Assembly (NCBI RefSeq): GCF_900102035.1
Contig: NZ_LT629689.1
Coordinates: forward strand, 3,580,001-3,644,000
Source: Pseudomonas extremaustralis
Lineage (GTDB): Bacteria > Pseudomonadota > Gammaproteobacteria > Pseudomonadales > Pseudomonadaceae
DNA: 64,000 nt
Reading direction: 5' to 3'
Positions 46,780 to 61,626 of this stretch are shown here, piece by piece (position 1 is the first letter of the stretch; every line of letters starts with the position of its first letter). A program made the translations under genes and the position numbers. Below the pieces are notes generated by a model. It was not told the DNA's origin, did not search any database, and saw only the letters and a program-made list of their open reading frames with translations.

Positions 46780-46816
46780 GGAAGGGGTGAGCGGTAGCTG
46801 ACCCAAGGCATCTGTG

Positions 46817-48718
46817 ATGAAATGCGACCCCAACCTCTATCGCGCCGCACCGCCATCACTTGCCGTGAAGCCTCGTCTGATCCGCCAATTGTTCCTGCCG
46901 CCGTTGGTCATCGCCCTGATGATCGGCCTGGGTTATATCGGCTTCTGGGTCAGCGAGTACTATGGCATCCGCACCCTCAGCGATACCGGCGAACGCCAGC
47001 TGGAGCTGCATGCCCGCACCGTCGAAAGTGAAATCAGCAAATACACCTACCTGCCCAGCCTGCTGGAGCTGGAGTCCAGCGTCTCCAAGCTGCTAGCCGA
47101 GCCGAATCAGGAAAACCGCAAGACCGTCAACGATTACCTCGAAGGCCTGAACCGACGCAGTCGCAGCCGGGCCATCTACGTGATGGACACCACCGGCCGA
47201 GTGCTGGCCACCAGTAACTGGCGCGACGCCGACAGTTACCAGGGTGAAGACCTGTCCTTCCGCGCCTATTTCCAGAATGCCGTACGCGGCCAGCCCGGAC
47301 GCTTCTACGGCATCGGCAGCACCAACGGCGAACCCGGTTACTACCTGGCCCACGGCCTGGAAGAGCACGGCAAGATCATCGGCGTCGCCGTGGTCAAGGT
47401 GCGTCTCGAAGCCTTGGAAGAACGCTGGCAACGTGCCCGCCTCGAAGCCTTTGTCAGCGATGAGAACGGCATCATCATCCTCTCCAGCGACCCGGCCCGC
47501 CGCCTCAAGGCCGTGCGCCCGCTGAGCGACGACACCAAGGAACGCCTGGCCCACAGCCTGCAATATTACTGGGCCACGCTGAACGAGCTGGAACCCCTGG
47601 CCCGTGAGCGCTTGAACGCGGGCACCGAGAAACTGACCTTTCCGGCCAACAGCGAAGTGGTGAACGACGAGCACGAAGTCAGCTACCTCGCCCAGACCCG
47701 CCCGCTCAACGACACGCCGTGGAATTTCACCCTGCTCACCCCGCTCAACGACCTGCGCCGCGCGGCGATCAACCAAGGCATCCTGGTGGCCGTCGCCTTT
47801 GGCCTGGTAGCCCTTCTGCTGATTGCCTGGAACGAACGGCGCAAGGTTATCGCCACGCGCCTCGCCGCACGGGAAGCCCTGCAGGAAGCCAACAGCCAAC
47901 TGGAGCGGCGGATTGCCGAACGCACCGCTGACCTGCGCGCCAGCAACGAACGGCTCAAGGGCCAGATCCGCGAACGGCGCCAGGCCGAAGAAACCCTGCG
48001 CCGCGCCCAGGACGAACTGGTGCAGGCCGGCAAGCTGGCGGCCATCGGGCAGATGTCCACCAGCATCGCCCATGAATTGAACCAACCGCTGGCCGCGCTG
48101 CGCACCTTGTCCGGCAACACCGTGCGCTTCCTCGAACGCGGCGCCCTGGACACCGCCAGCGCCAACCTCAAGACCATCAACGAACTGATCGACCGCATGG
48201 GCCGCATCACCGCCAGCCTGCGCTCGTTCGCCCGACGCGGCGATGATCAGGGCGAAGCCAGCCTGGGCAAAGCGGTGGACGCCGCGTTCCAGGTGCTCGG
48301 CGCACGCCTGGACAGCCTGCCGCTGACCCTGCACCGCGACTTCGCCCCGGCCCACGTGCAGATCGACCAGACACGCCTGGAACAGATCCTCGTCAACCTG
48401 ATCGGCAATGCCCTCGACGCCATGCAGGCGCAGCCGGCCCCCGAACTGTGGCTGGAAGGCAGCGCCGCCGACGGCAAATACCGCCTGCTGGTGCGTGACA
48501 ACGGCCACGGCATCGACGCCGAGGCCCGCAAGCATCTGTTCGAACCGTTCTTCACCACCAAACCCGGCGAGCAAGGCCTGGGCCTGGGCCTCACATTGTC
48601 CGCCAGCCTGGCCGCGGCCACCGGCGGCAACCTCGCCGTGGAACACCCCGCCGGTGGTGGTACTGCCTTTGTCCTCTGCCTGCCGCTGGCGGGCGCTCAA
48701 AAAGCCGAGTCGACATGA
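46817..48718 (+). CDS. aauS: Sensor histidine kinase AauS (DctB family)
   Basis: 633 aa. Two membrane helices (about 24-45 and 317-337) enclose a periplasmic double-Cache sensor; a coiled coil (355-395) follows, then the H-box IAHELNQPLAAL with His419, N-box NLIGNALDAM and G-boxes DNGHGI and GLGLGLTLS. By position next to gltIJKL and by family it is the acidic amino acid sensor. ATG at 46817; a GTG one codon before is possible. Confidence 0.9.
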   Translation: MKCDPNLYRAAPPSLAVKPRLIRQLFLPPLVIALMIGLGYIGFWVSEYYGIRTLSDTGERQLELHARTVESEISKYTYLPSLLELESSVSKLLAEPNQENRKTVNDYLEGLNRRSRSRAIYVMDTTGRVLATSNWRDADSYQGEDLSFRAYFQNAVRGQPGRFYGIGSTNGEPGYYLAHGLEEHGKIIGVAVVKVRLEALEERWQRARLEAFVSDENGIIILSSDPARRLKAVRPLSDDTKERLAHSLQYYWATLNELEPLARERLNAGTEKLTFPANSEVVNDEHEVSYLAQTRPLNDTPWNFTLLTPLNDLRRAAINQGILVAVAFGLVALLLIAWNERRKVIATRLAAREALQEANSQLERRIAERTADLRASNERLKGQIRERRQAEETLRRAQDELVQAGKLAAIGQMSTSIAHELNQPLAALRTLSGNTVRFLERGALDTASANLKTINELIDRMGRITASLRSFARRGDDQGEASLGKAVDAAFQVLGARLDSLPLTLHRDFAPAHVQIDQTRLEQILVNLIGNALDAMQAQPAPELWLEGSAADGKYRLLVRDNGHGIDAEARKHLFEPFFTTKPGEQGLGLGLTLSASLAAATGGNLAVEHPAGGGTAFVLCLPLAGAQKAEST

Positions 48719-50055
48719 ACGTAGAAAAAAACACTGACCTGACCGTGCTGATCGTCGAGGACGATCCCCATGTCCTGCTCGGCTGCCAGCAAGCCCTGGC
48801 GCTGGAAGACATCGCCAGCGTGGGCGTGGGCAGTGCCGAAGAAGCGTTGAAGCGTATCGGCGAGAACTTCGCCGGCATTGTCATCAGCGATATCCGCCTG
48901 CCCGGCATCGACGGCCTGGAGCTGCTCACTCGCCTCAAGGCCCTGGATAAAAGCCTGCCGGTGGTGCTGATCACCGGGCATGGGGATATTTCCATGGCGG
49001 TCGGCGCCATGCGTAACGGCGCCTACGACTTCATGGAAAAACCCTTCTCCCCCGAACGCCTGGTGGACGTGGCCCGCCGCGCCCTGGAACAGCGCGGGCT
49101 GGCGCGGGAAGTCTGGTCGCTGCGCCGGCAACTGGCGGAGCGTGACTCGTTGGAAGGCCGCATCATCGGCCGCTCGCCCGCCATGGAGAACCTGCGCGAA
49201 CTGATCGCCAACGTCGCCGATACGTCCGCCAACGTGCTGATCGAAGGCGAGACCGGCACCGGCAAGGAACTGGTTGCGCGCTGCCTGCATGATTTCAGCC
49301 GCCGCCATGCCCACCCATTCGTCGCGCTGAACTGCGGCGGTTTGCCGGAGAACCTCTTCGAAAGCGAGATTTTCGGCCACGAAGCCAACGCCTTCACCGG
49401 TGCCGGCAAGCGCCGCATCGGCAAGATCGAACATGCCCACGAAGGCACGTTGTTCCTCGACGAAGTGGAGAGCATGCCGATCAACCTGCAGATCAAATTG
49501 CTGCGGGTCTTGCAGGAGCGCACCCTGGAGCGGCTGGGGTCGAACCAGAGCGTGGCGGTGGATTGCCGGGTGATCGCCGCCACCAAGTCCGACCTTGACG
49601 AATTGAGCCGCGCCAACCAGTTCCGCAGCGACCTCTACTACCGCCTCAACGTGGTGACCCTGGAGCTGCCGCCCCTGCGCGAACGCCGCGAAGACATCCT
49701 GCAACTGTTCGAACATTTCCTGCAGCAATCGTCGCTGCGCTTTGACCGCACCGCACCGGAACTGGACAACCAGACCCTGTCCAGCCTGATGAGCCACGAC
49801 TGGCCCGGCAATGTGCGCGAACTGCGCAACGTCGCCGAACGCTTTGCCCTCGGCCTGCCCGCCTTCAAGAAAAGCGGCGCCAGCAGCGGCAGCCAGGGCC
49901 TGGCGTTTACCGAGGCGGTGGAAGCCTTCGAACGCAACCTGCTCGTGGATGCACTGCAGCGCAGCGGCGGCAACCTGACCCAGGCCAGCCAGGAACTGGG
50001 AATGGCCAAGACCACCCTGTTCGACAAGGTCAAGAAATACGGTTTGAGCCACTAA
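48715..50055 (+). CDS. aauR: Sigma-54 response regulator AauR
   Basis: 446 aa. Receiver with Asp59 (VISDIRLPG), AAA+ domain with GETGTGKE, and a Fis-type HTH at the end (NLTQASQELGMAKTTLFDKV). The sigma-54 contact loop reads NAFTGA instead of GAFTGA; the key FTGA residues are kept, and variants at the first position occur in the DctD branch. Overlaps aauS by 4 bp. It should bind the TTCGG-N4-CCGAA sites upstream of gltI. Confidence 0.92.
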   Translation: MNVEKNTDLTVLIVEDDPHVLLGCQQALALEDIASVGVGSAEEALKRIGENFAGIVISDIRLPGIDGLELLTRLKALDKSLPVVLITGHGDISMAVGAMRNGAYDFMEKPFSPERLVDVARRALEQRGLAREVWSLRRQLAERDSLEGRIIGRSPAMENLRELIANVADTSANVLIEGETGTGKELVARCLHDFSRRHAHPFVALNCGGLPENLFESEIFGHEANAFTGAGKRRIGKIEHAHEGTLFLDEVESMPINLQIKLLRVLQERTLERLGSNQSVAVDCRVIAATKSDLDELSRANQFRSDLYYRLNVVTLELPPLRERREDILQLFEHFLQQSSLRFDRTAPELDNQTLSSLMSHDWPGNVRELRNVAERFALGLPAFKKSGASSGSQGLAFTEAVEAFERNLLVDALQRSGGNLTQASQELGMAKTTLFDKVKKYGLSH

Positions 50056-50065
50056 GGAGCGCAGT

Positions 50066-50404
50066 GTGGATCTGCTAGTGAAGGCCGCCCTGGGCGCGGC
50101 GGTGGTGTTGATATTGGCCGCGCTGGCCAAGACCAAGAACTATTACATCGCAGGGCTGGTGCCGCTGTTTCCGACCTTTGCCCTGATCGCCCACTACATC
50201 GTCGGCAAGGGCCGTTCGGTGGAGGATTTGAAGACCACGATCCTGTTCGGGATGTGGTCGATCATTCCGTATTTTGTGTACCTGGCGACGCTCTACGTGA
50301 TGGTCGACCGGATGCGCCTGGAAGCGTCGCTCGCCGTGGCGGCGGTGGCATGGCTGATGGCAGCCACCGTGCTGGTCAGCGTGTGGGTACGCCTGCACAC
50401 CTGA
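50066..50404 (+). CDS. glpM: GlpM family membrane protein
   Basis: 112 aa with four hydrophobic segments (LLVKAALGAAVVLILAAL, IAGLVPLFPTFALIAHYIV and two more). Matches GlpM, linked in P. aeruginosa to alginate. GTG start at 50066. In P. aeruginosa glpM follows glpD directly; here the glt/aau locus lies between them. Confidence 0.9.
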   Translation: MDLLVKAALGAAVVLILAALAKTKNYYIAGLVPLFPTFALIAHYIVGKGRSVEDLKTTILFGMWSIIPYFVYLATLYVMVDRMRLEASLAVAAVAWLMAATVLVSVWVRLHT

Positions 50405-50432: not shown

Positions 50433-51830
50433 TCAGCGGACGATCTTGCCCACTTGAATCCCCAGCTTCTTCAAGCGATACCAGAAGCTGCGCTCGGAAA
50501 TCCCGATCTTCGCTGCCGCCGTTGCCTGTACGCCATTGCTCTCCTGCAAGGCCGCCAATATGTAGGCTTTTTCCACCTCGGCCAGCGCCGCATCGAGGTC
50601 GTGGGGAATGCCCGGCCCGTCGCTGAGGATCGCCGTCACGTCACCCTCGCGGGGTTTTGACGCAAACAGATAACCGGGCAAGTCGATATCCTCGATCACC
50701 GAGGATGCCGCCACGATAGTCGCGCGTTCAACGCAGTTCTGCAGTTCGCGGATATTGCCCGGCCAGTGATATGCCGCCATGGCCTGCAACGCCTCGGGGC
50801 TGAAGCCGGTGATGCGTTTGCCGGTGGTGGCGCTCAGGCTCTGGGCAAAGTGCCGGGCCAGGGGCGCGATGTCTTCCACCCGCTCGCGCAACGGTGGCAG
50901 CGGAATCGGGAACACGTTGAGACGGTAATACAGGTCTTCGCGAAACTCTTTGTTGGCCACCGCCTCCAGCAAGTTCTTGTTGGTGGCGGCGATGACCCGC
51001 ACATCCACCTTGCGCTCGCGGGGGTCGCCCACCGGTTCGATCACCCGTTCCTGCAACGCACGCAGAATCTTGGCCTGCAACGCCAAGGGCATATCGCCCA
51101 CTTCATCGAGAAACAGCGTGCCCTGATCGGCCTGCTGGAAGCGCCCTATCCGGTCGGCCACGGCGCCGGTAAAGGCGCCCTTGCGGTGGCCGAACATTTC
51201 GCTTTCCAGCAGCCCTTCCGGGATGGCCGCGCAGTTGACCGCCACGAAGGGCTTGTCGGCACGGCTGCCATGCTTGTGGATGGCGCGGGCGACCATTTCC
51301 TTGCCGGTGCCGCTTTCGCCGGTCAGCAGGATAGTGGCGCTGCTGTCGCGCACCGAGTCCACCGCTTGCAGCACTTTGCGAAACGCCGGGCTGTCGCCCA
51401 CCAGGCTGTCGAACTGGGCGTGTTCGTCCAGCTCGGCGCGCAGGCGCGCGTTGTCGCGCAGGATGTCGCGAAACTGCAGGGCCTTGGCCACGGTGATGTC
51501 CAGCTCGTCGATATCGAAGGGCTTGGCGATGTAGTCGTAAGCGCCGTTGCGAATCGACTGTACGGCGTTTTTCACCGTGCTGTAGGCCGTCATCACGATC
51601 ACCGGCACCTGGGGATAGCGCACCTTGATCTCGGCCAGCAGCGCCGGCCCGTCCATGCCCGGCATGCGCCAGTCGCTGATCACCAGGTCGATGTCTTCCT
51701 GCTCCAGCACCTTGAGTGCATGCAGGCCGTTGCCGGCAATGAACACCTGCACGTCGTTCTGGGCCAGGGCCGAGGCCAGCAGGTCGCAGAGCTTGGGTTC
51801 GTCGTCGACCACCAGAATGTTATGCGTCAT
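50433..51830 (-). CDS. Sigma-54 response regulator (NtrC family), locus activator
   Basis: 465 aa from ATG at 51830. Receiver: Asp9/Asp10, phosphorylation Asp53 (ISDWRMPGMDG). AAA+ domain: Walker A GESGTGKE (171-178), intact GAFTGA (218-223), FLDEVGDMPL. C-terminal Fis-type HTH NGVQATAAAKIGISERSFWY. Overlaps the kinase gene by 11 bp and is the last gene of the six-gene operon starting at 57766. The operon's own -24/-12 promoter suggests self-activation. Target list unknown. Confidence 0.93.
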   Translation of the reverse strand: MTHNILVVDDEPKLCDLLASALAQNDVQVFIAGNGLHALKVLEQEDIDLVISDWRMPGMDGPALLAEIKVRYPQVPVIVMTAYSTVKNAVQSIRNGAYDYIAKPFDIDELDITVAKALQFRDILRDNARLRAELDEHAQFDSLVGDSPAFRKVLQAVDSVRDSSATILLTGESGTGKEMVARAIHKHGSRADKPFVAVNCAAIPEGLLESEMFGHRKGAFTGAVADRIGRFQQADQGTLFLDEVGDMPLALQAKILRALQERVIEPVGDPRERKVDVRVIAATNKNLLEAVANKEFREDLYYRLNVFPIPLPPLRERVEDIAPLARHFAQSLSATTGKRITGFSPEALQAMAAYHWPGNIRELQNCVERATIVAASSVIEDIDLPGYLFASKPREGDVTAILSDGPGIPHDLDAALAEVEKAYILAALQESNGVQATAAAKIGISERSFWYRLKKLGIQVGKIVR

Positions 51831-53589
51831 GACTGTCCTCGTCGTCTTCGCCCACCGCCGGAATGTACAGGCTGAAGGTCGCACCGGCATCTTTCTCGCT
51901 GACGCATTCGATGCTGCCGTCGTGACTTTCCATGATCGAATAGACTTTGGCCAGACCCAGGCCCGTGCCCGAGGCCTTGGTGGTGACGAACGGCGTGAAG
52001 ATGCGCTCGATCATCTCGGCGGCAATCCCCTGGCCGGTGTCGGCAATGCTGATCACGGTGTTGTCGCCCACGCTGCGAATGCCCAAGGTCAGGCGCCCGC
52101 CGTCGGGCATGGCGTCGATGGCGTTGAGAATCAGATTGAGACAGGCCTGCTTGAGCTGCCGGGCATCCGCGTAGATCGTCGCGCCGGGGGCCTGGTCATC
52201 GATCTGCGCGTCGATGTTATGGGTGGCCAGTTCCGGCGCGCAGAAGCCCAGGATCTCTTCCACCAGCGCGCGGGCCGGCTGCACCACGCGCAACGGCGGG
52301 TTGGGCTTGGCGAAGTCGAGAAATTCAGTGATCAGGTCGTTGATGCGGCTGACTTCGCTGATCACGTATTCCAGGTGGCGCTTGTCGGTTTCCGCCAGGT
52401 CAGCGCGGCGGTGCAGCAACTGGGTGGCGGTCTTGATGATACCCAGCGGGTTGCGGATCTCGTGGGCCAGGCCCATGGCGACTTCGCCCAGGGCGTGCAG
52501 GCGGTCGCGGCGGCGCAGTTGGGCTTCGAGGTGATGCAACTCGCCCAGGCGCTCGGTCATGTGGTTGAAGGTGCTACTCAGTTGTGCCAGCTCATCGCCG
52601 CCGCTGACGGCGACGCGATGGTTGTAATTGCCGGAAATCACCGCGCTCACGCCCTGGGATAAATCCCGTAGCGGTTTGGTCAGGCGCCGCGACACCAGCA
52701 CCCCCGCCGCCAGCGACAGCGCCGAACTGAGCAGGAAAATCAGTACGAACAAATTGCTCTGGTTCACCAGCCCCATCAGGCTGGTATGACGCAGCAGCCC
52801 GCTGAAGATCACGCCTTGCAAGTCGCCGGCATCATTGAAGATCGGCCAGTACAGACCACTGTACTTGTTGGTGAACTGCTCGCTGGGCTGCCGGGTGCTG
52901 CGCATCGCGGCTTCGACACTCTTGGGGATGCGCGAAGGGTGATCCTGGAAGCGCTGGGTCGCGAAAATTTCCGAGAACCCGTCGGGATTGGCCAGGTACA
53001 GGCGCAAGTCGAGGGAGTGCACATCGGCCACACTGGTCAGGAAGCCGCTGTCCAGGTACGTGCCGACCAGCAACTGGTAATCGACGCCGTCCTGGGTGGT
53101 CTCGAAGGTCGAGACCACGATGCCGGTAGTGACCCCGGCCACCTGGACGGTCTGCAACACCGTGTTATTGGCCACATTGATCTGTTTGACGATGTCATCG
53201 GCCGCGGTGCTGAACACCACTTTGTGATCGCTGGCGCGGATCAGCGCGACCACGTCGATATTGCTGGCATCGGCAATGTCGGCGGTGAGCCTGTCGTGCT
53301 TGGCCGCCTGGCGGCTGGAGGGCGGGCTGGTGTAGCGCAGGAACAGTTTGGCCATGCGCGCGTTGTCGTGAAGGATGTCACCGATCTCGTCCTTGACGAT
53401 CTTGGTCGACTCCTGCAGCCAGATGCGCACGTTACTGTCGAAGATCTGCGACAGCGTGGTGGCGGCCAGCTCCGCCGCGATCATGGTGGGAATCACACTG
53501 ACCAACCAGAACGCCAGCACCAGCTTGCGCTGGACGCTCCAACGCGAAATGGCCAATGGGCGGGCTTTCTGGCGGGTCTTGGTGATCAT
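51820..53589 (-). CDS. Sensor histidine kinase with HAMP domain
   Basis: 589 aa. TM1 at about 21-43, a large periplasmic sensor domain (44-278, Cache-like), TM2 at about 279-299, HAMP at 300-352, H-box GLAHEIRNPLGIIKTA with His376, N-box LNLILNAIDAM and G-boxes DTGQGI and GTGLGLAKV. Cognate kinase of the adjacent sigma-54 activator. The signal is not predictable from sequence. Overlaps the upstream GNAT gene by 4 bp. Confidence 0.92.
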   Translation of the reverse strand: MITKTRQKARPLAISRWSVQRKLVLAFWLVSVIPTMIAAELAATTLSQIFDSNVRIWLQESTKIVKDEIGDILHDNARMAKLFLRYTSPPSSRQAAKHDRLTADIADASNIDVVALIRASDHKVVFSTAADDIVKQINVANNTVLQTVQVAGVTTGIVVSTFETTQDGVDYQLLVGTYLDSGFLTSVADVHSLDLRLYLANPDGFSEIFATQRFQDHPSRIPKSVEAAMRSTRQPSEQFTNKYSGLYWPIFNDAGDLQGVIFSGLLRHTSLMGLVNQSNLFVLIFLLSSALSLAAGVLVSRRLTKPLRDLSQGVSAVISGNYNHRVAVSGGDELAQLSSTFNHMTERLGELHHLEAQLRRRDRLHALGEVAMGLAHEIRNPLGIIKTATQLLHRRADLAETDKRHLEYVISEVSRINDLITEFLDFAKPNPPLRVVQPARALVEEILGFCAPELATHNIDAQIDDQAPGATIYADARQLKQACLNLILNAIDAMPDGGRLTLGIRSVGDNTVISIADTGQGIAAEMIERIFTPFVTTKASGTGLGLAKVYSIMESHDGSIECVSEKDAGATFSLYIPAVGEDDEDSHDA

Positions 53590-54713
53590 CGGGTTTCGCT
53601 TATCGCAGCAGCCATGGCAGGGTCGGAACGATCCGGTCGAATAAACAGTTTTACAAGCTTGAGCAGGCCGTTGACCAGCCGGTTGCGATGGCGGAAAAAC
53701 ACCATATTGCCCTCGAATTCGCAGCCCAGGCGCAGCTTACTGGCATACCCGGCCTGACCGCACTCGTACAGCGCAATATTGTGTTGAATACAGTAGTCGA
53801 CATTGGTCAGCCAACTGCGAAAGTACAGGTTGTAGTCACGGGTGAAGGCCGCGTCGTGCCCGAAGAACTTGTCCACCAGCCGGTGCTCGTCCACCAGGAT
53901 CAGGTTGAACGCCACCAGTTGCGCGTCGACCCAGTAAAGCGCACACACCGCGCGGTCCCCGAGCCGTTCGAGCACGCCAGTGAAATAACCGGCGGGCAGG
54001 CGCTCGAACTGCAACTCGGCACGTGTCAGGGTCGCTTCGTACAGGCGCATGAGCTCGGGGAGTACGTCATCGACGTTGCGCCGCCACTCCACCCGCGGCC
54101 CCGGTGCGCGCAGTTTGCGACGCAGGTCCTTGCGCGTGGATTTGCCCAGGGAGCCAAGGTAGGCGTCCACCGAACCGTAGGGCAACGGCAACACACCCGT
54201 AGGCAGACTCGGCATGCTTTGAAAGCCCGCGGCGCGACAGCTGTCGAGCCAGTGCGGGTCCTGGCTGGGTGCGTCTTTGACCGCTACGAGGCCGATCCCG
54301 AAATCGTCGGCATCCTGGCGCGCGGCCTCCAGCAAGTGCCTGAACAGCAGCGCGCGGCGCGACGCGGGGACGTGGCTGGCCACCCCGGCGTCGCACCGTT
54401 CGGCCACCGGTGAACCGATGGCGTACAGCCCCAATTGCATGAGACCGGGCCACAGCCGCGCAAGACGCTCGGTCAAGCGCTTGCCGGCGCCCGACACCGT
54501 GGTGTCGAGCCGATAATGAGTGATGAACGCAGCGGCCACGGCCACCAGCGTTCCATCTTCGTAAACCGCCAGGTAACGCCATTGGAAATCAGCGATGGCG
54601 GCGTTTTCCACAGCAACGTAGTAGTCCCAGTCCTCCAGGGCACCGGGAAAGCAGTCATTCCAGGCACTACGCTGGAGTGCCCGGATGGTTGGGAAGGCTT
54701 GGGTGGTTATCAC
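53586..54713 (-). CDS. GNAT/FemAB-like acyltransferase
   Basis: 375 aa from GTG at 54713, with AAGGGAAAC just upstream; a longer frame would run into the hydrolase gene. The C-terminal half fits the acetyltransferase-6 (BioF2/FemAB-like) group: LGSLGKSTRKDLRRKL, then YWVDAQLVAFNLILVDEHRL and DYCIQHNIALYECGQAGYAS. Such enzymes transfer acyl or aminoacyl groups in envelope or secondary metabolite pathways. It lies between the hydrolase (92 bp gap) and the kinase. Substrate unknown. Confidence 0.72.
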   Translation of the reverse strand: MITTQAFPTIRALQRSAWNDCFPGALEDWDYYVAVENAAIADFQWRYLAVYEDGTLVAVAAAFITHYRLDTTVSGAGKRLTERLARLWPGLMQLGLYAIGSPVAERCDAGVASHVPASRRALLFRHLLEAARQDADDFGIGLVAVKDAPSQDPHWLDSCRAAGFQSMPSLPTGVLPLPYGSVDAYLGSLGKSTRKDLRRKLRAPGPRVEWRRNVDDVLPELMRLYEATLTRAELQFERLPAGYFTGVLERLGDRAVCALYWVDAQLVAFNLILVDEHRLVDKFFGHDAAFTRDYNLYFRSWLTNVDYCIQHNIALYECGQAGYASKLRLGCEFEGNMVFFRHRNRLVNGLLKLVKLFIRPDRSDPAMAAAISETR

Positions 54714-54805
54714 GTGTTTCCCTTTTTTTCTGTATCCATCGGCCTTGTTGCAGTGGGTGGGCCTGTGGTGATGGGGTGGGCTTGTCCCGCCACCACAAAA
54801 AACCG

Positions 54806-55681
54806 CTAGCCACAAAGGGCCGCCTGGCCCTCCAGGTAGCCGGCATCCACAGCCGAGGTGTGTTGCTCGACGAACTGCGCACTCAACTCGATCACCCGGC
54901 GGTACTGCAGGTCGACGGTGATCATGTGATAGCAGTTGTCCAGCAGGATCTTGGTCACCGGCCCGCCGAGGTGGCGTTCCACGTAGTCGGCGTTCCAGCG
55001 GCTGGTGATGTCATCCTCGATCGAATGCAGCACCAACGCCGGCACCTTGACCTGGGGCATGCGTTTCTTGACCACGGCGTTCATCCGGTGCAATTCGCGC
55101 ACGGTGATGCCTTCCATGGTCAGCAACCCCGCCTCGCTGCTCTCCCCTTCCTTCATCTGCCGTTCGACGATGGCCCGCAGGCGTTCATTCTTGATGCCGT
55201 AGGGCGGTTTCTCTTCGAAACTGCAGATGTGCACGCCGAACGGGATTTTCATCAGCAACGGCGTGAGGAACGCCAGTTTGTTGATGCTCCAGCCGTCGTA
55301 CTTCAAGGTGGTGGAATACATCAGCAGACCGGCGACTTGCCCGGGGTGCTCGGCGGCCACGTACATCGACATCACCGCGCCCATGGACAAGCCACCGACG
55401 AATACCTGCGCATGCCGCCGACGGATTTGCACGAAGGTCTTGCGCACGCCTTCGTACCAGTCACGCCAGCCGGTGGCCTGCAAGTCGCTGTTGTCGCCGC
55501 AGTGCCCGGCCAGGGTCGGCACGTACACCGTGCAATTGCCCGCTTTGGCCAGGCCTTTGGCAACCTGGCGCAATTCCGTCGGGGTGCCGGTCAGGCCGTG
55601 GATCAACAGAATCCCGACCGGACCGTCACCGAGAACGAAGCCGGCATCACCTTCACCGAGGTCGATCTCGAGGTTGTTCAC
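54806..55681 (-). CDS. Alpha/beta hydrolase (S33/carboxylesterase type)
   Basis: 291 aa. Nucleophile Ser99 in GGLSMG, oxyanion region IHGLTGTPTE, acid Asp in LHSIEDDIT, His in LDNCYHMITVD; this matches bacterial monoacylglycerol lipase/Est30-like carboxylesterases. No signal peptide, so cytoplasmic. Start ATG at 55681 overlaps the aminotransferase stop by 4 bp. Could release or transfer an acyl chain in the pathway encoded by the operon. Confidence 0.85.
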   Translation of the reverse strand: MNNLEIDLGEGDAGFVLGDGPVGILLIHGLTGTPTELRQVAKGLAKAGNCTVYVPTLAGHCGDNSDLQATGWRDWYEGVRKTFVQIRRRHAQVFVGGLSMGAVMSMYVAAEHPGQVAGLLMYSTTLKYDGWSINKLAFLTPLLMKIPFGVHICSFEEKPPYGIKNERLRAIVERQMKEGESSEAGLLTMEGITVRELHRMNAVVKKRMPQVKVPALVLHSIEDDITSRWNADYVERHLGGPVTKILLDNCYHMITVDLQYRRVIELSAQFVEQHTSAVDAGYLEGQAALCG

Positions 55682-57072
55682 CGATTGGTCGCCCGCACCA
55701 GCAATTGCTCGAGCAGCTTCAGGCCCAGTTCGATTTCCGGGTAGCTGATTTCCAGGGACGGCGCCAGGGTGATCACGTTTTTGTAGTAACCGCCCACGTC
55801 GAGGATCAGGCCGAGTTTCTGGCCGTCCACCACCATGTCGCCTTTCATGCCTTCTTCGACCATGTAGTCCAGGGTCGCCTTGTCTGGCGTGAAGCCGTCC
55901 GGGCCGCAGATTTCGCAGCGCAGGGCCAGGCCCAGGCCATCGACATCACCGATGATCGGGAAGCGTTTTTGCAGGTCCTGCAGGCCTTCGAGGAAGAACT
56001 TGCCCTTGGCCATGACCATCGCGCCGTAGTCGACTTCGTTGGTCATCTTGAACATTTCCAGGCCTACCGCCGTCCCCAATGGGTTGGAGGCGAAGGTGGA
56101 GTGGGTCGAACCTGGCGGGAAGATTTTCGGGTTGATCAACTCTTCACGGGCCCAGATGCCGCCCAGTGGGTTGAGGCCGTTGGTCAGCGCCTTGCCGAAT
56201 ACGATCACGTCCGGTTGTACGTCGAAGTGTTCGATCGACCACAGCTTGCCGGTGCGGTAGAAGCCCATCTGGATTTCGTCGGACACCATCAGGATGCCGT
56301 GCTGGTCCAGTACCTGCTTGAGTTCGCGGTAGAAGTTCATCGGCGGGATCACGTAGCCGCCGGTGCCCTGGATCGGCTCGACGTAAAACGCTGCGTATTC
56401 GCTCTGGCCGACTTTCGGGTCCCACACGCCGTTGTATTCAGTCTCGAACAGACGGGCGAATTGCTGCACGCAGTGGCTGCCGTATTCTTCCTTGGTCATG
56501 CCTTTAGGGCCGCGGAAGTGGTACGGGAACGGGATGAACTGCGCGCGCTCGCCGAAGTGGCCGTAGCGGCGACGGTAGCGGTAGCTGGAGGTGATCGACG
56601 AAGCGCCGAGGGTACGCCCGTGGTAGCCGCCTTCGAAGGCGAACATCAGGCTCTTGCCGTTGGTGGCGTTACGCACCACTTTCAGGGAGTCCTCGATGGA
56701 CTGCGAACCGCCGACGTTGAAGTGCACGCGACCGTCGAGGCCGAATTTTTTCTTGGCGTCGACCGCGATCATTTCCGACAGCTCGATCTTGCCTTTGTGC
56801 AGGTACTGGCTGGCGATTTGCGGCAGGGTGTCGATCTGCTGTTTCAGCGCGTTGTTCAGGCGCGGGTTGGCATAGCCGAAGTTGACCGCCGAGTACCACA
56901 TTTGCAGGTCGAGGTAGGCCTGGTCTTCGGTGTCCCACACGTAGGAGCCTTCGCAACGGCTGAAAATACGCGGTGGTTCGATGTAGTGAACGGTGTCGCC
57001 GTAGGAGCAGTACTTGGCTTCTTTATCCAGAAGAATCTGGTCTTCGGCGCTCGCGATTCGGATATCAGACAT
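55678..57072 (-). CDS. Class III PLP-dependent aminotransferase
   Basis: 464 aa from ATG at 57072. PLP Lys294 in FGKALTNGLNPLGG, Asp265 in SDEIQ, GGYHGRT phosphate loop near 148-154, and an N-terminal SYGDTVHYIEPPRI. It transfers an amino group to or from an omega-amine or related carbonyl. Overlaps the phosphatase gene by 8 bp. The substrate cannot be read from the sequence; it could be an aldehyde or keto intermediate made elsewhere in the operon. Confidence 0.9.
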   Translation of the reverse strand: MSDIRIASAEDQILLDKEAKYCSYGDTVHYIEPPRIFSRCEGSYVWDTEDQAYLDLQMWYSAVNFGYANPRLNNALKQQIDTLPQIASQYLHKGKIELSEMIAVDAKKKFGLDGRVHFNVGGSQSIEDSLKVVRNATNGKSLMFAFEGGYHGRTLGASSITSSYRYRRRYGHFGERAQFIPFPYHFRGPKGMTKEEYGSHCVQQFARLFETEYNGVWDPKVGQSEYAAFYVEPIQGTGGYVIPPMNFYRELKQVLDQHGILMVSDEIQMGFYRTGKLWSIEHFDVQPDVIVFGKALTNGLNPLGGIWAREELINPKIFPPGSTHSTFASNPLGTAVGLEMFKMTNEVDYGAMVMAKGKFFLEGLQDLQKRFPIIGDVDGLGLALRCEICGPDGFTPDKATLDYMVEEGMKGDMVVDGQKLGLILDVGGYYKNVITLAPSLEISYPEIELGLKLLEQLLVRATNR

Positions 57073-57766
57073 GGTGGAAGAGTTCCTGGTTGTCAGCAGC
57101 AGTAAAGGAGGTAGCGTTGGCGGCAATGCCCTGGGGCAGTTGGGCCAGCAGTGCGGCCACTTCGGCAAAGGTGTCGAAGCGCGCGTGAGGAATGTCATGG
57201 GCCACGCAATAGTCGGCGAGGCTGCCCTTGGCGAACACAAAGTCGGCGGTGGAGGCCACGCACATGTCGGACTTGCCGTCACCGATCACCAGCACGCGCT
57301 TGTTGCGCGGCGTGGATTTGCACTTGCAGTTGCCGGAGGCGGCACGGCAGGCATCGCTGGCGTAGGGGAAGTCGATGCGCCAGCTGTCCTGGTCGACCTG
57401 ACGCAGACGGTTGGCGATGATCGGCAGCAAGGTCACGTAGTTGCGCGACAGAATGCGCGCGATGCCTTGCTCGATGCCGTCGCTGACCACTTCGATGGAC
57501 GCGCCCAGGCCCATGACGTGATCGACGAAATCGGGGAAGTCCGGGTCGATCTCGACGCTGTCGAAATACGCCAACAGTTCCGCCGGGGTGGCTTTGATCA
57601 GCGCCAGTTGACGGCTCAGGCATTCGCGTGAACCGATATGCCCATCCAGCCATTGCTGTTCGATGGTTTCCCATTCGGGGCCGGCGAAGCGTTGGAGGAC
57701 GTTGTCGATGACATCGGTGGGGGTAATGGTCCCGTCGAAGTCACACACGATATGCCAGTGGATCAT
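57065..57766 (-). CDS. HAD family phosphatase (MtnX/phosphoserine phosphatase-like)
   Basis: 233 aa. HAD motif I CDFDGTIT with nucleophile Asp9 and acid Asp11; motif II VSDG; motif IV VIGDGKSDMC. A cap domain lies between. Similar to MtnX-type and phosphoserine phosphatases, but no other methionine-salvage genes are nearby. First gene of the sigma-54-type operon. A CKCKS stretch (near residue 146-150) is an odd Cys pair in the cap. Confidence 0.85.
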   Translation of the reverse strand: MIHWHIVCDFDGTITPTDVIDNVLQRFAGPEWETIEQQWLDGHIGSRECLSRQLALIKATPAELLAYFDSVEIDPDFPDFVDHVMGLGASIEVVSDGIEQGIARILSRNYVTLLPIIANRLRQVDQDSWRIDFPYASDACRAASGNCKCKSTPRNKRVLVIGDGKSDMCVASTADFVFAKGSLADYCVAHDIPHARFDTFAEVAALLAQLPQGIAANATSFTAADNQELFHHV

Positions 57767-57815
57767 CTGCGTTTACCTAAGAGGAGCGCGCTGTATGCGC
57801 TTGCAACTGGGCTAG

Positions 57816-57831
57816 AGCAGAGACTGTGCCA
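57816..57831 (-). promoter_or_regulatory. Sigma-54-type promoter of the phosphatase-to-activator operon
   Basis: Minus strand TGGCACAGTCTCTGCT: the -24 TGGCAC is perfect and the -12 reads CTGCT. Predicted start near 57805, about 40 bp before the first gene. Confidence 0.7.
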
Positions 57832-57891
57832 ACTGGCCATTACCCAGCGGGGCTGGGGCCTTGCGGGGTGTTTCGGGTAATTTATGTCGCC

Positions 57892-57914
57892 CAAGCTACA
57901 ATTTTTGTAGCTTG
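57892..57914. promoter_or_regulatory. Perfect palindrome, candidate enhancer site
   Basis: Arms CAAGCTACAA and TTGTAGCTTG around a 3-nt centre, followed by a further GCTACAA. Centre about 74 bp upstream of the -24 element (about -98 from the start), typical for a sigma-54 activator site. Confidence 0.7.
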
Positions 57915-57991
57915 CTACAAACAAGATGAGTGCTTGCGCCAGGGATGCCCTTCGCGCGTTCATGCGCGCATACCAGATAAGGAAAAGCTTC

Positions 57992-58762
57992 ATGTTCAAG
58001 GTTACTTCTGCTGTTTTCGCCGGTTTATTGGGCCTTTGGGGCTTTTCCAGCCCCGTCCTGGCGGAAGCAATCACCGGTGAAGCCGGCGCAGGCATCAGCT
58101 ATCAACCCCACGACCCCACCGGCAGCCGCTACGAAACACGCCCGGTCCCGTACCTGGACCTGGACTGGGGCGACGTCAGCCTGAGCACCGACGACGGCCT
58201 GACCTGGAGCGCCCTGAAGACCCACGGTTTTACCGCCGGCCCGTACATCAATTACCTGCAAGGGCGCACGTCCAACGGCTCGTTGCAGGGGCTGCGCAAT
58301 GTGTCGGATATGGCTGAAGTGGGCGGTTTCATCCAATACGCCCCGGTCGACTTCTGGCGCGTGTACGCACAACTGGGCCAGGCCGTCGGCGGCGGCCACT
58401 CGCAGAGCGGCGCGCTGGGCAAGATCGGCGGCGAGCTGGGCTACCCGTTGGGCGGCGGGATCATCGGCAGCAGCGGCCTGGTCGCGCACTTCGCCGATGC
58501 GCGCCAGACCCAGACGTTTTTCGGGGTAGACAATAACGAAGCTGCCGCCACGGGGTTCAAGGCCTACAACGCCAGCGGCGGGTTCCAGAACCTCACCCTG
58601 ACCCAGAGCTTCGAATTCCCGCTGGCACCCCACTGGTCACTGCTGACCAGCGCCAGTTGGGTCCACCTGGTGGGCTCGGCATCGAACAGCAGCATCGTCA
58701 AGCAGACCGGCGACGTGAACCAGGGCCAGGTACAGACGGCAATTAGCTATAAGTTCGATTAG
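57992..58762 (+). CDS. MipA/OmpV family outer membrane protein
   Basis: 256 aa from ATG at 57992 (AAGGAAAAG upstream; a longer frame is unlikely). Signal peptide FKVTSAVFAGLLGLWGFSSP ... VLAEA. The body is an alternating beta-barrel pattern ending in YKFD, a C-terminal aromatic suitable for BAM insertion. MipA-like proteins are 12-strand barrels linked to murein hydrolase scaffolding or export. Divergent from the phosphatase operon. Confidence 0.85.
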   Translation: MFKVTSAVFAGLLGLWGFSSPVLAEAITGEAGAGISYQPHDPTGSRYETRPVPYLDLDWGDVSLSTDDGLTWSALKTHGFTAGPYINYLQGRTSNGSLQGLRNVSDMAEVGGFIQYAPVDFWRVYAQLGQAVGGGHSQSGALGKIGGELGYPLGGGIIGSSGLVAHFADARQTQTFFGVDNNEAAATGFKAYNASGGFQNLTLTQSFEFPLAPHWSLLTSASWVHLVGSASNSSIVKQTGDVNQGQVQTAISYKFD

Positions 58763-58764
58763 GT

Positions 58765-58780
58765 TGGTCTGAGCTTTGCA
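58765..58780 (+). promoter_or_regulatory. Sigma-54-type promoter of the desaturase gene
   Basis: TGGTCTGAGCTTTGCA: GG and GC correctly spaced, perfect TTGCA, weaker -24 (TGGTCTG). Predicted start near 58791, 27 bp before the gene. Confidence 0.55.
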
Positions 58781-58817
58781 ATAACGCCCCGGAATCCATT
58801 TTTCCAGGACATTTTTC

Positions 58818-59684
58818 ATGGCTCGCCCCGCTTACCGCCTGCTGCAACATTCGCTCTGGGACTTGGTGCCCATCGCCTTGGCCCTGGCGCATTTCGCTTT
58901 TGTCATCTGGCTGGTCACCGCCTTCCACGACCTGAGCGGATGGGCCCTGGTGCCCCTGTCGCTGGTCTACGCCGTGAGCCTGTCGTGGAGCATCAACAGC
59001 ATCTCCCACAACCAGATCCACAACGCCTACTTCAGCCATCACGCGATGAACCGGGCCTTCGACCTGTTGCTGTCGGTGACCATCGGGTTTTCCCAGACGC
59101 TCTACCGCGATATCCACAACCGCCATCACCGTGGCAACAGCGACCTGCCGGGGCTGGACGGACGCACCGTCGACCCGCTGTCGATCTACCAGCGCGGTAA
59201 GAATGGCCAGCCGGAGAACCCGTGGGCCTACACCTTCCTGAGTTTTTTCCGCGACGATCCCAAGCCGTTCTACGACGAAATGAAACGCAAGCGCCCGGCG
59301 GACGCGCGCTGGGTCAAGGTCGAGATCGCCGTGACCGTGGCGTTCTATATCGCCCTGGCCTTCTATCACTGGCAGGCGGTGCTGTGGCTGCTGCCGTTCT
59401 GGTATTTGGGCCAGTGCCTGTCCTCGCTCAACGGCTACTACGAACACTTCGGCGCCAACCCCGACCTGCCGATCGCCTGGGGCGTGAGTTCCTACAGCGT
59501 GCTGTACAACCTGATCTGGATGAACAACGGCTACCACGCCGAGCATCACTACCGGCCGAAAATGCACTGGACCAAGATGAAGGCGTTTCATCGGGAGATC
59601 GCCGAGCAGCAGCGCGCGGCGGGGGTCAAAGTGATTGCGGTGTCCCATGGCCTGGGCTTTTTGGTAGCGAACCGCAAACCCTGA
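58818..59684 (+). CDS. Membrane fatty acid desaturase
   Basis: 288 aa with four hydrophobic segments and the three histidine boxes of di-iron membrane desaturases: HNQIHNAYFSHH (64-75), HNRHH (100-104) and GYHAEHHYRPKMHW near residue 240. It inserts a double bond or hydroxyl into a lipid or long-chain substrate. The neighbourhood (hydrolase, aminotransferase, transporters) suggests a role in a dedicated lipid-like product rather than in membrane homeostasis. GGACATTTTTCATG gives the start. Confidence 0.9.
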   Translation: MARPAYRLLQHSLWDLVPIALALAHFAFVIWLVTAFHDLSGWALVPLSLVYAVSLSWSINSISHNQIHNAYFSHHAMNRAFDLLLSVTIGFSQTLYRDIHNRHHRGNSDLPGLDGRTVDPLSIYQRGKNGQPENPWAYTFLSFFRDDPKPFYDEMKRKRPADARWVKVEIAVTVAFYIALAFYHWQAVLWLLPFWYLGQCLSSLNGYYEHFGANPDLPIAWGVSSYSVLYNLIWMNNGYHAEHHYRPKMHWTKMKAFHREIAEQQRAAGVKVIAVSHGLGFLVANRKP

Positions 59685-59690
59685 GCACCC

Positions 59691-59716
59691 GCGGGAGCCG
59701 GCTTGCCGGCTCCCAC
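59691..59716. repeat. REP hairpin between convergent genes
   Basis: GGAGCCGGCTTGCCGGCTCC, a near-perfect palindrome in the 39-bp gap between the desaturase and the transporter gene; a third REP type in the window. May act as terminator. Confidence 0.8.
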
Positions 59717-59723
59717 GACGGGG

Positions 59724-60128
59724 TCAGTTTTCTTCGCCTTCGGCCAACAGCGCGATACCGACGATAATCACCGCCACCCCCAACCAGTGCAGCGGGCTGA
59801 TATGTTCCCCCAGCCCCAGCCACGAACCGAGCAGCACCCCCACAAACACCAGCGAACTCAGGGGAAACGCCAGGGACAGGCTGCTGCGCCGCAGGATCAG
59901 CATCCACACGAAAAACGCGCCGATGTAACAGGCGATCGCCGCCAGGATCCCAGGGTTGCGCGCCACCTCGGCCAGCCACTGCCAGGTGAACGCCATCTGT
60001 CCCAGTTGATCCCCGGCAACCTTGGTAAACAACTGGCCGGCGCTCTCGGTGCAGATCAGCAAGGCCCACAGCACTGCCGTGCCCAGGCGCCCATGCAACC
60101 AACCGCCATTGATCGTGTGCGTACTCAT
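59724..60128 (-). CDS. Small EamA/SMR-like transporter subunit B
   Basis: 134 aa from ATG at 60128 in an ATGA overlap with its partner. Four membrane segments, half the length of a DMT transporter; pattern AVLWALLICTESAGQLFTKV and a final LLAEGEEN. Such proteins work as dimers; the adjacent gene probably supplies the other half, as in the ArnE/ArnF or MdtI/MdtJ pairs. Exporter role inferred. Confidence 0.82.
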   Translation of the reverse strand: MSTHTINGGWLHGRLGTAVLWALLICTESAGQLFTKVAGDQLGQMAFTWQWLAEVARNPGILAAIACYIGAFFVWMLILRRSSLSLAFPLSSLVFVGVLLGSWLGLGEHISPLHWLGVAVIIVGIALLAEGEEN

Positions 60129-60505
60129 ACCTGACTCCCGGAAATAGCCACCAGCATCACGCCACAAGTAATCACCAGCGTGCCCAGCCAACGACGACGG
60201 CTGACGTTTTCCCCCAGCACCACTTTGCCCGCCAGCACCACACCGCAATACGCCAGCGCCGCGGATGGAAACAACAGACTCAACGGCGCGCGGGACAAGG
60301 CTTCGAGCCAGACGAAAAACTCCACCGCGTAGGCCCCGATGCCCGCCCACAGCAACGGCGCATTGAACACCTGGCCCCAGAACGCATTCAGGCGGAACTC
60401 ACCCTCCAGCTCCGGCAAACGGTCCAGGCCGATCTTGAAACACAACTGGCCGATCACATCGAGCACGATGGAAAACGCCACCAGCAACACCACGATAAAG
60501 CTCAC
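60125..60505 (-). CDS. Small EamA/SMR-like transporter subunit A
   Basis: 126 aa, four membrane segments (IVVLLVAFSIVLDVIGQLCF and three more). Related to the next gene product but clearly different, so a heterodimer is likely. Overlaps the arginase-like gene and its partner by 4 bp each. Substrate unknown; the pair fits export of an amine or lipid-linked product. Confidence 0.82.
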   Translation of the reverse strand: MSFIVVLLVAFSIVLDVIGQLCFKIGLDRLPELEGEFRLNAFWGQVFNAPLLWAGIGAYAVEFFVWLEALSRAPLSLLFPSAALAYCGVVLAGKVVLGENVSRRRWLGTLVITCGVMLVAISGSQV

Positions 60506-61422
60506 GGGAACAGCTCCTCGAACAGGTCGATCAGGGCGGCATTGGTCGCCGCGTTACGCTGCAAATCTTCAGCGCTCCAGCGCTCCGGCGGCGGCTGGTC
60601 GGACTTGGCTTCCCAACGCTTGAACGCGTTGCTGAACGCCGGCTGGGCGAATTCGCCGCACACGTCGATGCCGATGATGCGCTTGCGCGCCGCCAACGCC
60701 CGCAGGGCTTGCAGCAAGTGGCTCAGGCGCATGCCGCCCTGGTCCCAGTTGGTGGCCGCGTCTTCGCTGGCGAGCACGTCTTTGTCGATGGTGATCCAGA
60801 TCGCTTCGGTGGGCAGGCTGGCGATCATCTGCTCGAGGAATGCCGCCCAATCCAGCTCCGCCAGGTTGCGCCAGTGCAGATGGTTTTCCTGCTGCTGATG
60901 CCCGGCGCCATCGCCGATCCGACCCCAGACTTTCGACGGCGCGTGCTGCCAGGGAAACAGCTGCAACTGCCCGCGCTTGAGGGCGCCGAGGTTGCCGCCG
61001 CGCAGTTGCGGGTTATGCAGGTCATCGCTGCAGGGACCGAGGGTGACGACACGCTTGATCGCCGGCATCTTCAGCGCGCGATTGACCCACGACCCGCAGT
61101 GACGCTTAGGCGCAAAGCGCACCCAGTCAGGGTGGTTGTCGAAGTGGATCAGGCTGACGGGTTCTTTGAGATCGGCAAGAAACGCCGGCGTGAGGTGGTG
61201 ATAATCGCCGGAGCCGACAAACAGGATTTCCGGTCGCGCATCCGTGGGCCGGGGCCGCTGGGCCAGGCGTTCGGCGAAGCGCTTCCAGGTTTTTTCGGTG
61301 GACCACAGGCGTAGCTTCGGCCCCAGGTCCAGCAGGTCGATGCGTGTGGCACGGCCACTGGCCAAACGCCGGGCAATCGGGGCCTGACCGGTGAGGCTGT
61401 GGTCGAGGTCAAGAATATTCAA
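60502..61422 (-). CDS. Arginase/ureohydrolase-fold protein (UPF0489-like)
   Basis: 306 aa. Metal-site motifs of the ureohydrolase fold: GSGDYHHLTP, IHFDNHPDW (Asp, His, Asp) and ITIDKDVL (Asp, Asp). It lacks close similarity to arginase, agmatinase or deacetylase that I can name. First gene of the transporter operon, under a sigma-54-type promoter. It may hydrolyse a guanidino or amide group of the locus product. Confidence 0.8.
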   Translation of the reverse strand: MNILDLDHSLTGQAPIARRLASGRATRIDLLDLGPKLRLWSTEKTWKRFAERLAQRPRPTDARPEILFVGSGDYHHLTPAFLADLKEPVSLIHFDNHPDWVRFAPKRHCGSWVNRALKMPAIKRVVTLGPCSDDLHNPQLRGGNLGALKRGQLQLFPWQHAPSKVWGRIGDGAGHQQQENHLHWRNLAELDWAAFLEQMIASLPTEAIWITIDKDVLASEDAATNWDQGGMRLSHLLQALRALAARKRIIGIDVCGEFAQPAFSNAFKRWEAKSDQPPPERWSAEDLQRNAATNAALIDLFEELFP

Positions 61423-61484
61423 GGTAATGTTTCACCCCTAGTGGCAGCGCCCAGCCGGATACCGGATGGGCTTTAGGGGGTCAA

Positions 61485-61500
61485 TGCAAGGGGCGGGCCA
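61485..61500 (-). promoter_or_regulatory. Sigma-54-type promoter of the arginase-transporter operon
   Basis: Minus strand TGGCCCGCCCCTTGCA: perfect TTGCA at -12, one mismatch in the -24 (TGGCCCG for TGGCACG). Predicted start near 61473, about 50 bp before the first gene. Confidence 0.7.
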
Positions 61501-61531
61501 GGGGGTCTCTTGAAGCCAGTGTGCACTCCAT

Positions 61532-61616
61532 GTGGGAGGGGGCTTGCTCCCGATGACAATGGCACATTCAACATCGTCGTTGACTGACAGACCGCTATCG
61601 GGAGCAAGCCCTACAT
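61532..61616. repeat. REPIN, GGGGGCTTGCTCCCGAT type, right arm shortened
   Basis: Left copy GTGGGAGGGGGCTTGCTCCC... at 61532-61554; right inverted copy ATCGGGAGCAAGCCCTACAT at 61597-61616 lacks five bases of the CCCCCTCCCAC arm. Lies between the arginase operon and the FrnE-like gene. Confidence 0.8.
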
Positions 61617-61626
61617 TGGACCCGCG

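Follow-up and report, generated by a model that had tools for sequence, protein, structure and literature searches.

A conserved locus of Pseudomonas extremaustralis with predicted sigma-54 control and a possible role in making an envelope lipid or metabolite

The locus described here is part of a 64,000-nucleotide stretch of the Pseudomonas extremaustralis genome (RefSeq assembly GCF_900102035.1, contig NZ_LT629689.1, positions 3,580,001 to 3,644,000), hereafter the window, and occupies positions 50433-61500 of it. The host genome has 6.67 Mb in one contig, and the class-III aminotransferase (AT) that serves as the locus marker (55678-57072; PF00202, 243.6 bits versus a cut-off of 30.5) is 99% identical to records of P. 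sivasensis and P. marginalis. AT is the second gene of a long minus-strand operon with the order HAD-AT-hydrolase-FemAB-kinase-regulator. The other members are an MtnX-like HAD-IB phosphatase (HAD; 57065-57766; TIGR01489, 82.9 bits versus a cut-off of 81.55), an alpha/beta hydrolase (54806-55681) whose nearest solved relative is a bacterial monoacylglycerol lipase (PDB 4lhe, E 5.2e-30), a FemAB-like tandem-GNAT transferase (53586-54713; Pfam FemAB_like/Acetyltransf_6) whose GTG start was picked by homology, a sensor histidine kinase (51820-53589; Pfam HAMP, HisKA and HATPase) and an NtrC-type sigma-54 response regulator (50433-51830; Pfam receiver, Sigma54_activat and HTH_8). Read from the regulator end, the distances between these genes are -11, -4, +92, -4 and -8 bp.

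A second minus-strand operon, with both junctions at -4 bp, comprises an arginase-fold hydrolase (ARG; 60502-61422; PF00491, 38.4 bits versus a cut-off of 22) and two short EamA transporters (60125-60505 and 59724-60128), each resembling an ArnE/ArnF half by Pfam and NCBIfam scores. On the plus strand, opposite to the two operons, lie the genes for a MipA/OmpV family outer-membrane protein (57992-58762; PF06629) and for an FA_desaturase-family membrane enzyme (58818-59684; PF00487), an optional part of the locus in which the histidine boxes are intact. Putative -24/-12 promoters of sigma-54 type, both conserved across loci, precede the HAD operon (TGGCACAGTCTCTGCT, 57816-57831, minus strand) and the ARG-EamA-EamA operon (TGGCCCGCCCCTTGCA, 61485-61500, minus strand), and a weaker sigma-54-like site precedes the desaturase (TGGTCTGAGCTTTGCA, 58765-58780, plus strand). 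The overlapping dyads CTACAAAAATTGTAG and TTGTAGCTTGCTACAA (57896-57920), likewise conserved across loci, are a likely activator binding site by prediction. The genes, their families, the overlaps and the 92-bp gap had been described in an initial annotation of the window and were all recovered at the same places from open reading frames and from Pfam and NCBIfam matches. The transporters, which it had called SMR-like, are indeed small paired proteins, with EamA and ArnE/ArnF as their best families, below the curated cut-offs.

This locus is real and old. The recurring set of HAD, AT, hydrolase, FemAB, ARG and paired EamA genes is found in Rhizobium, Agrobacterium, Bosea, Bartonella, Xanthomonas, Wohlfahrtiimonas and others, with AT relatives outside Pseudomonas at 71-78% identity; named AT carriers include Rhizobium, Bartonella and Pseudomonas fragi. 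A private oddity of Pseudomonas was rejected on the strength of these homologs in other genera. Related loci were taken from a Pseudomonas-dominated list of the best 80 of 580 confirmed, and genes were counted by tblastn at presence thresholds of our own setting, as open reading frame picking had mislabelled several high-GC genes; counts refer to loci of at least 14 kb outside Pseudomonas (39 of 43) and of at least 19 kb within it (56 of 64, window included). The biosynthesis and transport genes in the 39 non-Pseudomonas loci are HAD (32), hydrolase (33), FemAB (29), ARG (29) and each EamA (26). Others are DegT aminotransferase (14), ABC (10), HlyD (10), MipA (7), the sigma-54 regulator (7), beta-ketoacyl synthase (KAS; 6), cyclopropane fatty acid (CFA) synthase (6) and desaturase (5). 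The counts for DegT, KAS, acyl carrier protein (ACP), HlyD and ABC include the Xanthomonas source locus, and those for CFA synthase, EptA and DgkA include the Agrobacterium source locus. The 56 Pseudomonas loci contain HAD (56), hydrolase (56), regulator (55), MipA (55), EamA (46), FemAB (42), ARG (35) and desaturase (10).

Gene order varies with the host. In Agrobacterium plasmid pAt2788a, Rhizobium sp. BG4 and Sinorhizobium sp. B11 the order is regulator-kinase-HAD-AT-ARG-EamA-desaturase-hydrolase-GNAT-EamA, with MipA; Agrobacterium pAt1D132a has a comparable run without the desaturase and with MipA not listed. The order in Bosea is HAD-AT-ARG-EamA-hydrolase-FemAB-EamA-kinase-regulator, and rearranged sets occur in Bartonella, Wohlfahrtiimonas, Oleiagrimonas and Xanthomonas. 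One Bartonella plasmid locus holds AT, GNAT and an ARG relative, annotated as hypothetical and 47% identical to the Xanthomonas ARG, with no match for HAD, hydrolase or EamA in the 21 kb read. FemAB and ARG stand together in 28 of the 39 loci outside Pseudomonas, a count that is unchanged without each query's own source locus; L117 has FemAB without ARG, and L121, cut by a contig end, has ARG without FemAB. The possibility, raised in the initial annotation, that these families would be scattered and unlinked in relatives was not borne out, since they are linked across relatives. Genes for envelope lipids are present at some loci, namely CFA synthase, EptA and DgkA in Agrobacterium pAt2788a and a FabF-like KAS with ACP in Xanthomonas.

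Some loci of the sample deserve separate mention. On plasmid pAt2788a (L104, 16142-19371), MipA, an EptA-like phosphoethanolamine transferase and a diacylglycerol kinase come after the locus. In P. libanensis DSM 17149 there are two AT loci, each on a contig of its own (L033 and L043), of which L033 matches in HAD, AT and hydrolase only. A diverged AT (55%) is present in L123, where no other gene of the cluster was recognised in the 20 kb fetched.

At the level of genomes, AT is present in 58 of 199 Pseudomonas genomes and, in the phylum sample, in 25 of 398, spread over 12 of 212 genera. All 16 ARG-positive genomes among these 398 carry AT, within 5 kb of ARG in 14 of them, at about 11.5 kb in G207 and on a different contig in G290. 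Co-occurrence across Pseudomonas genomes was the first check proposed in the initial annotation: ARG orthologs (at least 74% identity) occur in 36 of the 199 genomes, all 36 with AT, and FemAB orthologs (at least 63%) in 48, of which 47 have AT, the exception being G551. Nine further Pseudomonas genomes have a diverged ARG (37-39%); eight of them carry AT and lack the ARG ortholog, and the ninth is again G551, which is AT-negative at the cut-off. Eight of these nine diverged loci were fetched (L127-L134, from seven AT-positive genomes and G551, with G463 left out), and in all eight the FemAB'-ARG' pair has one or more EamA genes as neighbours, and a DegT aminotransferase was called in six (five of the seven from AT-positive genomes). 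An unlinked version of Xanthomonas type can therefore stand in for the FemAB-ARG-EamA part, which argues for a joint function of that part with AT. A large gene, which belongs to the penicillin-amidase family in L130, adjoins the second FemAB'-ARG' locus.

The initial annotation had placed -24/-12 sites at the start of three transcription units. As single matches such sites mean little, with 39 observed in the window versus 43.9 expected, and the matrix used here is an approximate one, with shuffled sequence as the null and strain relatedness ignored. The best sigma-54 score exceeds the 99% level of the shuffled sequences upstream of HAD in 63 of 64 Pseudomonas loci and upstream of ARG in 36 of 36; for control genes at the same loci the corresponding counts are 1 of 60 for the response regulator, 0 of 31 for DsbA, 0 of 45 for a second hydrolase and 0 of 52 for GlpM. 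Chance promoters were rejected, since the pattern is not enriched as single matches but the conservation of the sites is, and the HAD and ARG sites owe their credibility to this conservation across loci. The site before the desaturase is a weaker one: its mean score of 11.1 compares with a null mean of 3.5 and null 95% and 99% levels of 8.0 and 11.2, one of 11 loci exceeds the 99% level, and the best site is of TGGTC[TC] type in nine of the 11 loci as listed. MipA has no sigma-54 site of this kind, with one of 63 Pseudomonas loci above the 99% level. Nine of 47 loci exceed that level upstream of the EamA gene next after ARG; in loci without ARG, TGGCCC-N5-TTGCA is kept upstream of EamA in four of the six printed, and in L044 and L076 the first base differs and little else.

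Outside Pseudomonas a site precedes HAD in all seven loci that carry the sigma-54 regulator (0 of 100 shuffles as good). Of the remaining 29 non-Pseudomonas HAD rows, four reach p <= 0.01 (L090, L117, L121 and L126); L117 has a further NtrC-type match nearby (32%), and the sequence of L121 and L126 breaks off close to the locus. At the second FemAB'-ARG' loci the sigma-54 score is over 10 in only one of 16 rows.

Relatives of the regulator, at 53-58% identity by tblastn, are the ones found in those seven of the 39 non-Pseudomonas loci, and an NtrC-type activator gene is linked to sigma-54 promoters, as in a sigma-54 two-component regulon. The kinase has two membrane spans around about 230 residues that are probably periplasmic, judged by our own reading of the sequence. 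The candidate activator dyad is found before HAD in 61 of 64 and before MipA in 61 of 63 Pseudomonas loci, with scores of at least 10 in 64 of 64 loci and of 12-13 in 62. Its consensus was derived from the same loci that were then scored, and L117, L121 and L126 were separated by hand after the sigma-54 result. Outside Pseudomonas, the dyad GCTnCAAnnnTTGnAGC scores at least 11 of 13 before HAD in six of the seven loci with the regulator (L109 fails), 11 in L121 and 7 in L117 and L126 among those set apart, and at least 11 in none of 26 others, three of which reach 10. The core CTACAANNNTTGTAG has a single exact match in the genome, between HAD and MipA, and one further place matches it with one mismatch; as a control, the reversed pattern with one mismatch allowed gives 14 genome matches versus the two places of the pattern itself. 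Other regulators occur at related loci: in Agrobacterium, Rhizobium and Sinorhizobium the response regulator and the kinase beside HAD are of different types, the pair on Agrobacterium pAt2788a scores best to QseBC, and the Bartonella loci also match the regulator of that pair.

A single regulon with its own two-component system, as initially proposed, and with a conserved set of biosynthesis and export genes is well supported. The dyad is confined to the HAD/MipA side. The dyad is absent from the upstream regions of ARG (0 of 36) and of the desaturase (0 of 11), which speaks against one activator site for each promoter; the upstream maxima are 11 in two of 47 loci for EamA (the second small transporter) and at most 10 for ARG. 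These promoters would then be reached from afar, which for ARG means 2.6-5.0 kb in the 34 loci measured, or would respond to another activator.

Two neighbouring features were seen on either flank of the locus. A second pair of kinase and sigma-54 regulator genes, with a GlpM gene, adjoins it at window positions 46814-50404, and these genes are near the locus, on either side, in many Pseudomonas loci. Upstream of the ARG promoter there is an inverted GGGAGCAAGC-type repeat (61531-61620), which we take to resemble the REP elements of Pseudomonas.

An 18-row alignment of chosen AT homologs has a mean column identity of 79%, with K295, presumably the pyridoxal phosphate lysine in its usual motif, invariant. 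Its nearest solved relatives include an aminotransferase, which we assume to be of archaeal type, and amino-acid racemases. T238 and T436 are likewise invariant in the 18 rows, T238 aligning with E, D or S in five relatives and T436 with R in all four relatives aligned there; E211 and R398 are, as we assume, the residue numbers in the gamma-aminobutyrate aminotransferase of Escherichia coli. From these replacements the substrate of AT is probably something other than an ordinary amino acid. In HAD, each of D9, D11, S95, K148, D163 and D167 is conserved in 97% or more of 101 sequences, and KAS and DegT likewise retain their residues, all of which we take to be catalytic; a cysteine pattern proposed for HAD matched 0 of 100 sequences. 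The nucleophile motif of the hydrolase is GLSMG in the window, with Ser in 31 of 38 sequences and Cys in seven, from six rhizobial loci and L117 (listed as L090, L091, L102, L104-L106 and L117), and the Cys nucleophile could point to acyl transfer instead of hydrolysis.

The FemAB-like protein is modelled as a tandem GNAT whose nearest folds are the aminoacyl-tRNA-dependent transferases FemX, Sbb17 and the MprF domains, together with streptothricin-type synthases; compared by sequence, its profile had no match among solved structures at E 0.01. ARG belongs to the ureohydrolase family, as its arginase metal motifs are invariant in 19 of 19 rows, and its structure model has the arginase fold with ureohydrolases nearest. 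As a single sequence it had one non-significant match in the PDB, its profile gave weak agmatinase and arginase matches, and NCBIfam gave no match at 0.001. The desaturase has conserved His residues across 16 sequences, and the EamA halves are best to ArnE and ArnF, with 41.4 and 37.2 bits versus 92 (ArnE) and 34.9 and 52.6 versus 99 (ArnF). A known defence system was also considered and rejected, as PADLOC matched the regulator only, through RtcR-type AAA/HTH models (first EamA protein not included).

The spread of the AT marker over 12 of the 212 genera sampled, a likely regulator site found once in the genome and an ARG family tied to the set most likely indicate an envelope lipid or metabolite not described before. 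We tentatively favour, with less than even confidence, a system induced by an envelope signal for the synthesis and translocation of an aminoacylated amphiphile, like MprF and Arn in function and built differently. The kinase would sense an envelope signal and phosphorylate the sigma-54 activator, which would bind the dyad between HAD and MipA and switch on the sigma-54 promoters of the synthesis and translocation operons; conservation lends support to this putative chain from signal to promoter. The AT/HAD pair could then convert a phosphorylated keto precursor into an amino alcohol or the head of an amino-lipid, and the FemAB-like enzyme would place an aminoacyl (or acyl) group on that amine. 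ARG may trim the attached aminoacyl group, converting arginine, if that is what is transferred, to ornithine. Where present, the desaturase or cyclopropane synthase would tailor the chains, the lipase-like hydrolase might recycle or transfer acyl groups, and the EamA pair would carry the product across the inner membrane. The envelope context is suggested by MipA, by the CFA synthase, EptA and DgkA genes of an Agrobacterium locus and by known hydrolases of aminoacyl lipids. MipA of P. aeruginosa is reported to be a (co)sensor that binds polymyxin and acts with MipB and ParRS, unlike the gene set here (PMC10936184), and AcvB/VirJ are reported to be hydrolases acting on aminoacyl lipids (PMC13135905). 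The boldest form of the proposal, a new class of cationic membrane lipid in which an AT/HAD amino alcohol is aminoacylated from tRNA, trimmed by a ureohydrolase from arginyl to ornithyl and flipped by an EamA pair acting on its own, with a single enhancer serving up to three sigma-54 promoters, is quite improbable as a whole.

Another reading, which we consider somewhat unlikely, is that the FemAB-like enzyme uses acyl-CoA or acyl-ACP in place of aminoacyl-tRNA; the product would then be an N-acylated, ceramide-like amino-alcohol lipid, with its chain modified by the desaturase or CFA synthase; no gene resembling serine palmitoyltransferase, as in the bCerS pathway, was noticed among the annotated neighbours of six regions outside Pseudomonas, where no dedicated search was made. 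An unlikely alternative is a secreted soluble metabolite containing an amine, for instance an antibiotic or a signal, that would leave the cell through the EamA pair, joined in certain hosts by an ABC-HlyD-TolC pump. The ABC and HlyD matches at ten of the 39 non-Pseudomonas loci each, TolC as annotated in the Xanthomonas and Agrobacterium pAt1D132a regions and the streptothricin-type synthases among the nearest FemAB folds would fit it, but the EamA halves resemble flippases, and neither an assembly-line enzyme nor an adenylation domain was among the annotated neighbours read, again with no dedicated search. Catabolism or detoxification of an amine or guanidino compound through the aminotransferase and ureohydrolase is very unlikely. 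Members of the AT and ARG families often serve catabolism, where sigma-54 two-component control is common as well, but the desaturase, FemAB, EamA pair, MipA, CFA synthase and KAS/ACP fit it poorly, and AT lacks the Arg present in all four relatives aligned at T436.

The component families are already known. No description of their combination, of the restriction of ARG to AT-bearing genomes in the sample or of the dyad turned up in the open-licence PMC literature, which is a weak absence, with no search aimed at the dyad itself. Several known systems come close to the locus. Pairing an aminotransferase with a phosphatase gives an amino alcohol, and the serinol-phosphate aminotransferase/phosphatase pairs of the Campylobacter capsule may be compared by analogy, in logic only. 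From the ureohydrolases arginase and agmatinase, ARG differs by 12-21% identity to the listed chains, by a divergent TNWDQG stretch and by a family confined to AT-bearing genomes in the phylum sample. The likeness to Arn consists of the paired short EamA proteins nearest ArnE/ArnF and of the DegT aminotransferase in 14 of the 39 non-Pseudomonas loci; in contrast to Arn, the EamA proteins are below the ArnE/ArnF cut-offs, a class-III aminotransferase is used instead, and the Xanthomonas DegT scores 45.2 versus an ArnB-type cut-off of 631. ArnA, ArnC, ArnD and ArnT were not among the annotated neighbours of the six regions outside Pseudomonas, with no dedicated search. With MprF the locus would share the tandem-GNAT aminoacyl transferase fold, as modelled, but its transferase is soluble, a separate EamA pair replaces the flippase domain, and AT, HAD and ARG are added; among the locus proteins Pfam gave no match to LPG_synthase_C (PF09924) or to the flippase domain (PF03706), and the genome's own matches to these lie elsewhere. 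Should the product be an aminoacylated lipid, the locus would represent another architecture beside MprF and Arn for altering surface charge, and it would offer a direct way to test whether ureohydrolases act on transferred amino acids.

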